Positions 40,546 to 45,240 of a stretch of DNA of 64,000 bases are shown here, in pieces. The position numbers and the translations under genes were made by a program. Positions within the stretch are counted from its first letter, which is position 1. Each line of letters starts with the position of its first letter. Source of the stretch: Candidatus Kinetoplastibacterium oncopeltii TCC290E (GTDB lineage Bacteria > Pseudomonadota > Gammaproteobacteria > Burkholderiales > Burkholderiaceae_B); contig NC_020299.1 of the NCBI RefSeq assembly GCF_000340865.1, positions 1-64,000 on the forward strand, read 5' to 3'. The notes below the pieces were generated by a model. That model saw nothing but the letters and a program-made list of their open reading frames with translations, did no database searches and was not told where the DNA came from.

Positions 40546-41334
40546 TCAAAATATTAGTTCACTTAATTTCTGTCCTGGATCTATGGATTTCATAAGAGTT
40601 TCTCCAATCAAGAATGCATTTATATTTGATTTTCTCATTATTTCTATATCTTCTTTTGAAGAAAATCCACTTTCTGTAATTATTATTCTTTCGCTTGGTA
40701 CATACTTCTTTAGATTTAATGTATTATTTATATCAGTATGGAAACTTCCAAGATTTCTATTATTGATTCCGATAAGTTTTGTTTTAAGTTGTAGTGCCAT
40801 ATCAATTTCACGTTCTGTATGTGTTTCTACCAGTACATCCATCCCTAATTCCATTGCGGTGGCTTCTAAATCTATTAATTGCTTCATATCAAGTATAGAT
40901 ACTATTAACAATATGCAATCTGATCCTATTGAACGTGCTTCTAAAACTTGATATTCATCTATTACAAAATCTTTACGCAAAATAGGTAAAATACAAGCAG
41001 ATCTAGCTTTACGAAGGTCTTCACAACATCCTTTAAAGAACTCTAAGTCAGTTAATACCGATATGCAAGTCGCCCCATTTTTAGCGTAGGTTATAGCAAA
41101 TTTTTCTGGATCGAAATCATTTCTGAGTATTCCTTTAGATGGTGAAGCTTTTTTTATCTCTGCTATAATACTTGGTGATCCTTGTTTAATCTTTTTTTCT
41201 ATTGCATCAGCAAAACCTCTAGTTGGATCTTGCTCACATATTTTTTCAATGAGAATAGAACTGCTGTTTTTTTGTTTTGCTATTGATATTTCTTCTTTTT
41301 TCTTAAGAACAATTTTATTTAAAATGTCATTCAT
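40546..41334 (-). CDS. trpC: Indole-3-glycerol phosphate synthase
   Basis: TrpC closes the indole ring from CdRP. It is a monofunctional TIM barrel of 262 residues with [15 protein letters not shown] (catalytic Lys and Glu), [37 protein letters not shown] and [12 protein letters not shown]. It is not fused to trpF, which is not in the window. The ATG overlaps the trpD stop by four bases. Confidence 0.97.
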
Positions 41335-42362
41335 TTTGAGAACTTCCTAGTGTAGGCTCTAAATTCTTCTAATTTATCTCTTGCTGATCCATTTTTTATG
41401 ACTTCAAAAGCTAATGAGACACCTTGTTTAATATTATTAGCTTTATTACCTGCATATATTGCAAGTCCAGCATTTAATGCAACAATGTCTCTAGCAGATC
41501 CATCAACATTGTTTAAAGAATCTAGTATAAGCTGGGCCGATTCTGCTCTGTTTGATACTTTGATATTTCGGTTAGATGCCATTGGTATATTATAGTCTTC
41601 AGGATGAATTTCGTACTCTGTTATTATCCCATTTTTTAATTCTCCGACCATTGTTGCACTACCCAATGCAGCTTCATCCATTCCTTCTTTACCATATATA
41701 GTTAGTACATGGCTAGATTTAAGTTTTTTTAATACTCTAACTTGAATGCCTACTAAATCAGGATGGAAAACTCCCATTAGTTGATTAGCTGCACATGCTG
41801 GATTAGTCAGTGGTCCTAATATATTAAATATTGTACGAACACCAATTTCTTTTCTAACTATAGAAATATTGTCCATTGCTTTTTGATGTAAAGGCGCAAA
41901 CATAAATCCTATTCTTGTATTTTCTATACACTCAATAATATTTAATGGTTCTAATTCTATATTTACTCCTAGTTCTTCTAAAACATCTGCACTTCCAGAA
42001 GAGGAGGATGCGCCACGATTACCATGTTTTGCTACTCTTACTCCTGCAGCAGCTGCAACAAACATAGCAGCAGTAGATATATTAAAAGTTTGACTACCAT
42101 CTCCTCCAGTACCACACATATCCAAAAGATTTTCTCTATTTTTAATAGGCACTTGTTTAGAGAATTCTCGCAATGCTAAAGCAGAAGCTGTTATTTCATC
42201 AATAGTTTCTTTTTTGACTCTTAAGCCTATAAGTATTGCGCTTGATAGTTGTGGGGATAGTTCTCCATTTATCATCATGCTCATCAAACTGAACATCTCA
42301 TCATGGAATATTTCTCTATGTTCTATACATCTAGTTAATACTTCAGTCACAGTAATAGACAC
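41331..42362 (-). CDS. trpD: Anthranilate phosphoribosyltransferase
   Basis: TrpD joins anthranilate with PRPP. The 343 residues show the PRPP motif [40 protein letters not shown], and GPLTNPA. It is separate from the glutaminase TrpG (fused in E. coli). It lies between trpG and trpC in the order EGDC. Confidence 0.97.
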
Positions 42363-42378
42363 GTATTATCCTCCGATT

Positions 42379-42945
42379 CTAATTTATCATAAGAAAATTT
42401 TTTAATAACTGGTATCCATGTTCACTAAGTATTGATTCTGGATGAAACTGAACACCGAAGATTGGTAGTTTTCTATGTCTTACACCCATGATATCACCAT
42501 CAGGAGCTGTTGCAGTAACTTCCAGGCATTCAGGTAACGTCGAAGGGTCTATAGTTAATGAGTTGTATCTTATTACTGTATATGGTGATGGTATACTATT
42601 AAAAATTCCAAGACTATTGTGTGACAATTTTATTGTTTTTCCATGCATGACATTATTAGCTCTAATAATATTTCCACCAAATGCTTCACCTATAGCCTGG
42701 TGTCCTAAACATATACCTAATATAGGAAGTTTTTTAGAAAATTCTAATATAGTAGATATACTAATTCCTGCTTGAATAGGAGAGCAAGGTCCTGGAGATA
42801 TGCATATTCTATCTGGTTTTAGATCATAGATACTTTGAATATTAATTTCATCGTTTCTATATACACATACTTCTTCTCCAAGTTCTCCAAAATATTGAAC
42901 TATGTTATATGTGAATGAGTCATAGTTATCTATCATTAAAAGCAT
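42379..42945 (-). CDS. trpG: Anthranilate synthase glutaminase component
   Basis: TrpG is the class I glutamine amidotransferase feeding ammonia to TrpE. Motifs are [25 protein letters not shown], the nucleophile Cys in [21 protein letters not shown] and [15 protein letters not shown] (His-Glu). At 188 residues it is full length. It could also serve p-aminobenzoate synthesis, as TrpG does in some bacteria. Confidence 0.96.
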
Positions 42946-42982: not shown

Positions 42983-44494
42983 TTAATCTAAACCATTCTG
43001 TACCTGTTCTGCAGCTCTAAGTATTGCTCTAGCTTTGGCTTCAGTTTCAGCCCATTCTAATTCAGGATCAGAGTCCGCTACTATTCCCGCAGCAGATTGA
43101 ACATATAGTATTCCATTTTTAATAATTCCAGTACGTATAGCTATAGCAACATCCATTTCTCCGTTGTAGCTTATGTATCCAGCTGCTCCACCGTATACTC
43201 CTCTCCTTACTGGTTCTAATTCATCTATTACTTCCATTGCTCGTATTTTAGGTGCTCCTGTTAGCGTTCCAGCTGGAAATGCTGCTTTTAAAACATCCAT
43301 ATTACCCATATTTGATTTTAATATTCCTGTAACATTAGACACTAAGTGCATAACATGTGAGTATCTTTCTATAGTCATAGTATCAGTAACTTTTACAGTT
43401 CCAATTTCAGAGACACGACCTATATCATTTCTAGCTAAATCAATAAGCATTACATGCTCGGCAATTTCTTTGGTGTCAGATTTAAGAGATTTTTCTAATT
43501 CAAGATCTTGCTCATGAGTGCCGCCTCTCTTTCTAGTTCCTGCTAGTGGTCTTATTGTAATTTGTGATTTTTTTATTCCGTTAGTTATAATCTTTTCTTG
43601 CCTAACTAATATTTCTGGTGATGATCCGACAACTTGAAAATCATCAAAGTTCCAGAAATACATATATGGAGAAGGATTTATTGATCTCAAAGATCTATAC
43701 AGCGATAGAGGATTATCTCTGAATGATTTAGTAATTGTTTGTCCAATCACTACTTGCATTAAATCTCCTGCTTCGATATATTCTTTAGCTTTGATTACAG
43801 CTGAAATATAATCTTTTTTAGTGAAATTTCGTTTCTCATTAGTTTGCATACTGTTATGAGAATAAGGTGTCTCTATAGGTTTTTTTAATCTAGTCTTTAA
43901 TTCTGCCAATCTTTTTTGTGTTTTTGAGTAGCTTTCTGGTTTATTAGGATCGGCATATACTATTAGATAAATACGTCCTGCTAGATTATCAACAACAGCC
44001 AATTCGTCTATATGTAATAACATTATATCAGGTGTGCCTTCTTCCATTCCTTCCGGGAATGGTTTTACTGCTGCTCCTAAACAAGGCTCGATGTTTCTAA
44101 CAACATCATAGGCAAAATACCCGGCCAGTCCACCACAAAAACGCAATACTCCTGGCAATGGAGCTGCCCTAAATCTATCTTGATATTCTTTTACAAAATC
44201 TAGAGGATTACCTTCATGTGTTTCTAAAATCTTACCATTTGTAATGACTTCAGTTATTTTACCGATAGATCGCAAAATGGTTTCAGCTGGTAATCCTATA
44301 AAAGAATATCTCCCAAAACGATCTCCACCCATAACAGATTCTAAAAGACAACTCATCTTTCCTGAGCTGTTATTAGAGTAAGCAAGCTTAAGATATAGAG
44401 ACAAGGGAGTGTCTAAATCAGCATAAGTTTCTGATATTAGAGGTATTCTATTATATCCTTGGGATACTAATGAATTAAATTCTATTTCTGTCAT
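42983..44494 (-). CDS. trpE: Anthranilate synthase component I
   Basis: TrpE makes anthranilate from chorismate and is the branch-point enzyme of tryptophan synthesis. The 503 residues include an N-terminal domain with LLESVMGGDRFGRYSFIG, a Ser-containing motif matching the Trp feedback site of relatives, and the catalytic core with PSPYMYFW, IRPLAGTRKRGG, EKEIAEHVMLIDLARND-type HVMLIDLARNDIGRV, FPAGTLTGAPKIRAMEVIDELE and YGGAAGYISYNGEMD. It is the first structural gene behind the attenuator. GGAAA lies about 9 bases before the ATG. Confidence 0.97.
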   Translation of the reverse strand: MTEIEFNSLVSQGYNRIPLISETYADLDTPLSLYLKLAYSNNSSGKMSCLLESVMGGDRFGRYSFIGLPAETILRSIGKITEVITNGKILETHEGNPLDFVKEYQDRFRAAPLPGVLRFCGGLAGYFAYDVVRNIEPCLGAAVKPFPEGMEEGTPDIMLLHIDELAVVDNLAGRIYLIVYADPNKPESYSKTQKRLAELKTRLKKPIETPYSHNSMQTNEKRNFTKKDYISAVIKAKEYIEAGDLMQVVIGQTITKSFRDNPLSLYRSLRSINPSPYMYFWNFDDFQVVGSSPEILVRQEKIITNGIKKSQITIRPLAGTRKRGGTHEQDLELEKSLKSDTKEIAEHVMLIDLARNDIGRVSEIGTVKVTDTMTIERYSHVMHLVSNVTGILKSNMGNMDVLKAAFPAGTLTGAPKIRAMEVIDELEPVRRGVYGGAAGYISYNGEMDVAIAIRTGIIKNGILYVQSAAGIVADSDPELEWAETEAKARAILRAAEQVQNGLD

Positions 44495-44514
44495 ACTTTT
44501 TCCATGCTTATTAA

Positions 44515-44549
44515 TAAAAAACCCAGAACTATAATAAATTGTTCCGGGT
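44515..44549 (-). terminator. Trp attenuator terminator hairpin (segments 3:4)
   Basis: On the minus strand ACCCGGAAC pairs with GTTCTGGGT (9 bp, one G-U) across an 11-base A+T loop, followed by TTTTTTATT. It lies about 20 bases before the trpE ATG, so it would end transcription before trpE. Its 5' arm can instead pair with the end of the leader-peptide gene. Confidence 0.85.
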
Positions 44550-44660
44550 CGATTGAAGTATTGATTATTAATACAAACTATTTGATTATGATCTAATGAT
44601 CATTTACCCGGACGAAATCAGCCACCAGCGCCATAAAGCGTCATGTGTTTTATCCAGGTA
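44543..44660 (-). promoter_or_regulatory. Antiterminator and protector pairing of the trp leader (segments 1, 2, 3)
   Basis: Segment 1 TACCTGGA (44660-44653) can pair over 8 positions (one G-U) with segment 2 TCCGGGTA (44612-44605). Segment 2 also pairs over 7 perfect positions with segment 3 ACCCGGA (44549-44543), the 5' arm of the terminator. The Trp codons lie between segments 1 and 2. A ribosome held there would block 1:2, favour 2:3 and prevent the terminator, so trpEGDC would be read when charged tRNA-Trp is scarce. A short ATGATC/GATCAT hairpin lies between segments 2 and 3. Confidence 0.75.
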
Positions 44661-44672
44661 GTTACAATTCAT
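44604..44672 (-). CDS. trpL: Trp operon leader peptide
   Basis: This is a 22-codon frame on the minus strand, MNCNYLDKTHDALWRWWLISSG. It carries three Trp codons within four (TGG CGC TGG TGG) in a genome where TGG is otherwise sparse. It ends in TAA 109 bases before trpE. Its codons contain both pairing segments 1 and 2 of the attenuator. No strong ribosome site is visible before the ATG, but this is the only ATG in the frame; an in-frame stop lies shortly upstream. The role is inferred from the known trp attenuation mechanism. Confidence 0.85.
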   Translation of the reverse strand: MNCNYLDKTHDALWRWWLISSG

Positions 44673-44787
44673 TATTTTATAATTAGATATGAAATAAATT
44701 TAAATGCTTGAAAGTACTATAAAATAGCTCCATCATAATGATGGACCAATTTAGAAACTTTTGTCAAGTTATCTATGATAAGTCCAT

Positions 44788-44815
44788 AGCATATATATTT
44801 GAATTATTATGTCAA
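44788..44815 (-). promoter_or_regulatory. Candidate promoter for trpL-trpEGDC
   Basis: On the minus strand TTGACA (44815-44810), a 16-base spacer and TATGCT (44793-44788) would start the leader RNA about 110 bases before the trpL ATG. A second TTGACA at 44767-44762 and a pair TTGGTC/TATTTT further down are alternatives, so the true promoter is uncertain. Confidence 0.35.
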
Positions 44816-45240
44816 AATTAAACTAGCATATTGTATGATGTATTTTATTCATCAGATATAGTAGAAATTACTGCTATAGTTTGTTATATTTTCATTTCCA
44901 TTTAATTACACAGGCATAATATTTGGTCATATATAATCACAATAGCTATTACATATTTAAATCATGGCAATAAATTAGTATTTTGTGATATTTAAATTGT
45001 AAGCCCTGTATATTTTACTGACTATAAATTCTCTTTATTGATTATTATTTAGCTTGTTTAAACTATAAAACACATAATAATAAGCTGCATTTTGTCTACA
45101 TTTATTCTTTTATAATTTTTAAGCAATAAGTTTTTTATTATGACTCATTTATACTACTTAGAGATATCATAATATAAATCTATAATAAGATATAAATCCA
45201 TTGACACAAAATAACTTTATTCCAGATTTTTTAATTATAA
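44816..45240. other. Non-coding remnant region between rpe and the trp leader
   Basis: Together with the leader this gap is about 570 bases. In related free-living bacteria the phosphoglycolate phosphatase gene gph lies here, between rpe and trpE. No frame with gph motifs is readable on the minus strand. The nearest is a short frame just after rpe (MDLYLIIDLYYD, faintly like an HAD start), which is weak. I see nothing else. Confidence 0.45.

Follow-up and report, generated by a model that had tools for sequence, protein, structure and literature searches.

A predicted trp attenuator in a trypanosomatid symbiont: an inherited family trait with a decay series among its sisters

According to PMC3846528, symbionts of this kind live in trypanosomatid protists and possess a complete route from chorismate to tryptophan, and the protist hosts have only the beta subunit of tryptophan synthase. 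A candidate regulatory switch ahead of the trp genes would here lie in a symbiont that, on the same account, makes tryptophan its host cannot make alone. The question raised by the locus is whether such a switch is present and intact in a genome of 810,172 bp, as an initial annotation had proposed, and whether it is special to the symbiont. We addressed it in the first 64,000 nucleotides of contig NC_020299.1 of Candidatus Kinetoplastibacterium oncopeltii TCC290E (the window) and in related genomes.

All features described here lie on the minus strand. The leader open reading frame (ORF; MNCNYLDKTHDALWRWWLISSG, 44604–44672) has its ATG at 44672 and its stop codon at 44606–44604, and consists of 22 codons plus the stop. 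Its control codons, TGG CGC TGG TGG (W14, R15, W16, and W17; 44622–44633), are conserved and place three Trp codons (44633–31, 44627–25, and 44624–22) within four. Segment 1 (TACCTGGA, 44653–44660) lies over leader codons 5–7, and segment 2 (TCCGGGTA, 44605–44612), which overlaps the leader stop codon, can pair either with it or with segment 3 (GACCCGGAAC, 44541–44550). Segment 4 (AGTTCTGGGT, 44521–44530) is followed by the U-run of a predicted intrinsic terminator (44516–44521), and the spacer between segments 2 and 3 is predicted by folding to hold a small hairpin, AUGAUC-AUUA-GAUCAU (44588–44603). In the profile annotation of the window, rpe lies upstream of the leader. Downstream are trpE (anthranilate synthase component I, 42983–44494; NCBIfam TIGR00564, E 9.7e-155, 516 bits, just below the cut-off of 517.7), trpG (42379–42945; TIGR00566, above cut-off, a subfamily that also includes pabA-type proteins), trpD (41331–42362; TIGR01245, above cut-off), and trpC (40546–41334; NF001373, above cut-off).

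The three pairings have balanced duplex energies of −14.1 (1:2), −13.7 (2:3), and −16.3 kcal/mol (3:4), and 2:3 and 3:4 compete for segment 3, so that the antiterminator is exclusive with the terminator. These data bear out the initial annotation in its description of a 22-codon leader with three Trp codons in four upstream of trpE, and of exclusive 1:2, 2:3, and 3:4 pairings followed by a U-run. Folded alone, the 3:4 hairpin reaches −14.3 kcal/mol (z −4.1) and the entire leader −43.5 kcal/mol (z −4.15), with 0 of 200 shuffles as good in either case; the RNA ending at segment 3, in which 2:3 forms, stands out less from its shuffles (z −1.57; 14 of 200 equally good). A generic terminator scan, covering loops of 3–8 nt only, did not list the 3:4 hairpin. 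When the 300 nt upstream of trpE were shuffled with dinucleotide composition preserved, a W.WW or WW.W leader appeared in 2 of 5000 sequences, a terminator in 4 of 1000, and the two together in 0 of 5000; a chance origin of the combination is rejected. The pattern TGGNNNTGGTGG has 17 matches across the 810-kb genome, compared with 11 for a reversed-pattern control, and the Trp codons are therefore meaningful only in combination with the ORF, the hairpins, and their conservation.

The locus thus brings together a leader ORF with clustered Trp codons, a terminator before trpE, an antiterminator exclusive with it, and a trp biosynthetic gene downstream. From its sequence, the predicted pairings, and their conservation and co-variation (see below), we infer that it is very probably a ribosome-mediated transcription attenuator of trpEGDC, a switch that appears to raise the trp genes when tryptophan is scarce, with transcription from a candidate promoter, ribosome stalling, termination, and a response to tryptophan as its presumed steps. 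RNA polymerase would transcribe the leader and a ribosome would translate the 22-codon peptide. With ample Trp-tRNA, the ribosome would get to the stop codon and cover segment 2; because the stop codon lies inside this segment, a ribosome there would leave segments 3 and 4 to pair, and transcription would stop ahead of trpE. With scarce Trp-tRNA, the ribosome would stall at Trp codons 14–17, and the free segment 2 ahead of it would pair with segment 3, preventing 3:4 and allowing trpE to be transcribed. If the leader were not translated, 1:2 would form and the terminator would be left free. That tryptophan output still responds to supply, as suggested in the initial annotation, is something we likewise infer.

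Is the element special to this symbiont? TrpE was found at E ≤ 1e-100 in 192 of 200 sampled genomes of the family, the window's own included, and upstream DNA was compared for 76 loci (30 best matches, 40 spread over genera, L086 and L100, and four more), of which 8 belong to the symbiont genus and 68 to the rest of the family. Among these 68, a W.WW leader is present in 64, Trp-rich variants in three (W-R-Y-W in L064, G-Y-W-W in L083, and W-R-W-C in L086), and neither in one. A terminator-like hairpin with a T-run accompanies 65 of the 68; by the criteria used, no terminator hairpin was found in L084, L144, and L100. The hairpin arm matching segment 3 contains CCCG(G) in 61 of the first 62 loci (59 by one scan, L070 and L079 by another), and in 71 of 73 the leader ATG precedes the first Trp codon by 39–48 nt. 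Eleven named loci (L002–L012) agree with the family pattern, but partly repeat genomes in the set. The Trp codons, the segments, and the terminator are hence conserved in most close relatives examined, as the initial annotation required, and the putative attenuator is an inherited trait of the family. The earlier claim of a complete attenuator kept in a reduced genome holds as far as all parts are intact; it does not single out this symbiont.

In L100, from a free-living genus of the same family, there is no leader because gph runs to the start of trpE, an arrangement that looks like a deletion of leader and terminator. Outside the family, L014 and L015 have other Trp-rich frames, with no hairpin found, and L013 is a poor match. 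Many loci of an order-wide set (48 from an order search, 46 of them in other families) have other Trp/Arg-rich short ORFs, e.g., A-W-L-W-R-R-W and R-W-R-W-R-R, and for 9 of the 48 our short-ORF script listed nothing. Different Trp/Arg-rich short ORFs precede trpE in L088, L089, L098, L107, L103–L106, L109, L111, L014, and L015; those of other families are possibly further attenuator types.

If the pairings matter, segments should fit their own partners best. As segment 1 shifts in register from genus to genus, we used a partner-swap test rather than column covariation, with one locus for each of 30 genera outside the symbionts (of 32 labelled, those with leader motif and hairpin; g8 and g43, for which the hairpin scan found none, were dropped). 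Native partners paired more strongly than swapped ones for 1:2 (−21.1 versus −18.3 kcal/mol), 2:3 (−16.9 versus −15.7 kcal/mol), and 3:4 (−17.1 versus −15.6 kcal/mol), with 0 of 2000 permutations as good each time. Limiting segment 1 to −48 to −18 nt from the first Trp codon gave z −6.7 for 1:2 (0 of 1000). The test keeps some effects of relatedness, but control windows argue against that explanation: segment 2 gave z values of 1.4 with the downstream region, 0.3 with far upstream DNA, and 1.4 with the 5′ untranslated region, and no clear excess with the Trp codons (z −1.05, 146 of 1000).

In sliding 18-nt windows, the segment 1 signal spanned centres −42 to −24 and peaked at −36 and −30, with a weak tendency at the first Trp codon itself (z −1.45, 21 of 300). 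Together with the spacing of the ATG, this puts segment 1 of the family over approximately leader codons 2–6. In the window, 19 nt separate segment 1 from the first Trp codon, in agreement with the approximately 18 nt of the initial annotation, which had pointed out the difference from Escherichia coli; the layout is common to much of the family. It is not uniform: an ungapped stem search lists 13 family loci whose best complement starts ≤17 nt from the first Trp codon, part of them overlapping it (L005 and L069, which are the same genome; L023, L027, L035, L037, and L045, from one genus; and L040, L047, L048, L054, L062, and L073).

This position bears on what a stalled ribosome could do. With an assumed footprint, a ribosome holding Trp14, 16, or 17 in its A site would cover approximately leader nt 24–61 over the three positions, leaving segment 1 (nt 13–20) behind it and segment 2 (nt 61–68) ahead and free. 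With segment 1 behind the stalled ribosome, 1:2 would have to be blocked either by the ribosome wedged in the 40-nt 1:2 loop or by a following ribosome at the start codon that covers segment 1. Folding with only the bases under the stalled ribosome forced open still gave 1:2 and 3:4 rather than 2:3, and since this does not reproduce the switch, steric blocking or a second ribosome must be assumed. We consider it possible, if a shade short of probable, that the family represents a type of attenuator in which the stalled ribosome never covers segment 1, which would lie over leader codons ~2–6 within the footprint of the initiating ribosome, and in which 1:2 is blocked by a ribosome wedged in its loop or by a second one queued at the start codon. 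If so, the switch would respond to initiation and stalling jointly, and would be kept by an obligate symbiont to match tryptophan supply to the demand of its protist host.

The leader start of the window has no Shine-Dalgarno match (+2.9 kcal/mol for the duplex with the anti-Shine-Dalgarno sequence). Over 72 loci, of which six are symbionts and five are named records (two of these five duplicate genomes in the set), leader starts have a mean duplex energy of +0.2 kcal/mol (1 of 72 at ≤ −4), compared to −0.3 kcal/mol (4 of 72) when upstream letters are shuffled, −3.1 kcal/mol (5 of 72) for the trpE starts of the same loci, and −2.0 kcal/mol (13 of 35) for 35 hand-picked genes of the window. A leaderless transcript for the leader ORF was considered and dropped, because −10-like hexamers peak 61–80 nt before the leader start and TGNTA(T/C)AGT is found upstream. 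In L022, L030, and L031, the stop codon of gph and the start codon of the leader share the sequence ATGA, an overlap that hints at translational coupling of gph and leader.

TGNTA(T/C)AGT, which we take to be an extended −10 motif, is present upstream in 67 of 72 loci from outside the symbiont genus (within gph wherever this was inspected), versus 0.4% of mononucleotide shuffles. These 72 include the eleven named loci (L002–L012), of which at least four duplicate genomes in the set; leaving all eleven out gives 57 of 61. Where present in loci L002–L012 and L019–L085, the motif lies in the gph 3′ region, 63–193 nt before the leader start, and is probably the trp promoter of the non-symbiont loci. 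For the symbionts we propose instead a candidate promoter, TTGACA-N18-CATCAT (44738–44767), identified by pattern matching in the 3′ end of the gph remnant. Its TTGACA is identical in the three closest genomes, its −10 match is weak, and a rival match at 44815–44788 scores higher in the window; promoter-like matches near the leader number 12 versus 9.5 in shuffles, hardly an excess. A short hairpin with a T-rich tail (TCCATCATTATGATGGA, 44745–44729) overlaps the candidate −10 region. The TrpR profile PF01371 had no match in the window's genome, with E. coli and Bacillus subtilis positive as controls.

Within the symbiont genus, the eight genomes differ in how much of the element they keep. All three pairings are present in the window's genome (G000) and in G078. 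G007 retains W-R-W-W with a weak 1:2 (−8.2 kcal/mol), and G140, G155, and G101 have W-L-W-W with a 1:2 of −7.8 to −10.0 kcal/mol, the stop codon being shifted downstream of segment 2 in the latter two; the leader of JADMLC010000001.1 (Candidatus Kinetoplastibacterium crithidii) is the same as that of G101. In G048, a 22-codon ORF in the same place reads W-R-C-F-F (by eye), so that two of the three Trp codons are gone, and 1:2 is down to −6.9 kcal/mol. Seven of the eight keep 2:3 (−12.4 to −13.7 kcal/mol) and 3:4 (−13.8 to −16.3 kcal/mol). In G121, a gap of 62 nt separates trpE from the end of an rpe-like frame (55% identity with the window rpe over 212 aa), and this gap contains no Trp leader and no qualifying hairpin. 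No gph adjoins trpE in that genome, and searching a 2.6-kb stretch there with the G078 gph gave no hit. In a TrpE tree, G000, G078, and G007 form one group and G048 joins G140, G155, and G101, the placement of G121 not being firm. The putative trp attenuator is being eroded elsewhere in the genus, and the lost leader of G121, the lost Trp codons of G048, and the leaderless L100 indicate that the control is dispensable in places.

Between rpe and trpE, the window carries the decayed remnant of gph (phosphoglycolate phosphatase; about 44720–45240) that holds the candidate promoter. It was located by tblastn, which aligned the open G078 gph frame to 44720–45135 at 35% identity across 130 positions and at 64% in the last 22 aa; the G078 protein itself matches phosphoglycolate phosphatase models slightly below their cut-offs. 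A frame with a gph-like end of 229–237 aa is open in G078, G007, G140, G048, and G101, and is shorter in G155. In 40-nt bins, identity to G078 is 82–95% from ~44774 to trpE versus 19–72% in the decayed gph, a contrast that suggests, from this one comparison, selective retention of the promoter region, leader, and terminator; that gph has simply decayed unevenly is the weaker explanation.

The graded decay of the genus, from the weak 1:2 of four members through the nearly Trp-less leader of G048 to its absence from G121, would also fit an inherited attenuator that is drifting and no longer regulates in this symbiont. However, the parts in the window are all intact and stand out from the decayed gph, and 2:3 and 3:4 survive in seven of eight genus members, which makes such a relic unlikely in our judgement. 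Another thought is that the terminated leader RNA or its peptide might also act in trans, like peTrpL of Sinorhizobium meliloti, a precedent described in PMC7298713. A short RNA with an Arg/Trp-rich peptide is indeed conserved over the family, but the cis role already accounts for this conservation, and we rate the additional function as quite improbable. Hardest to credit is a constitutive terminator that would only trim transcription arriving from rpe and gph, with no sensor in the leader ORF: the gene order rpe-gph-trpE permits such read-in, but 67 of 68 family loci outside the genus have a Trp-rich leader, the three variants counted, and segment 1 co-varies with segment 2, which would be superfluous in a plain terminator. 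We retain the reading of the element as a ribosome-mediated attenuator acting on trpEGDC.

The kind of system is textbook. In E. coli trpL, regulation follows the 1:2, 2:3, and 3:4 pairing scheme, and the window resembles it in having a short ORF with clustered Trp codons, then a hairpin and U-run before trpE. It differs in its leader peptide, in the lack of a TrpR match, and in the lack of a Shine-Dalgarno match at the leader start. Used as a positive control, E. coli trpL has its best segment 1 window overlapping the Trp codons (−15.9 kcal/mol, centred at +6), whereas no such overlap with the control codons is found in the window, where the best segment 1 lies at −24 to −18 (−14.1 and −13.9 kcal/mol), and the family signal lies at about −36 to −30. 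The Trp leader family of Rfam, presumably RF00513, concerns the same gene and the same principle, yet the window and 20 related loci gave no Rfam leader match at gathering thresholds, nor did 44400–44900 give any match even at E up to 1. Our literature search turned up no account of attenuation in Kinetoplastibacterium, nor of trp attenuators in the family to which it belongs; older subscription comparative papers, which could hold it, lay outside the search, and priority can therefore not be claimed. As far as these searches show, the new elements are the occurrence of the system over most of a family although Rfam has no entry for it, the placement of segment 1 near the leader start, and the decay series. 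The family layout provides a natural setting for testing how the 1:2 hairpin is blocked by a stalled ribosome.

Two other systems invite comparison. The trpL/peTrpL of S. meliloti is a Trp attenuator leader outside the gammaproteobacteria (PMC7298713). In the aphid endosymbiont Serratia symbiotica, where leaders of amino acid operons have been studied, PMC4122931 describes a threonine leader that has been eroded or detached, a case of loss, whereas the window has an intact trp system beside a decayed gene, with sister genomes at other stages. With intact, weakened, nearly Trp-less, and deleted versions, this one genus lets one ask directly what it costs to lose supply-responsive control.
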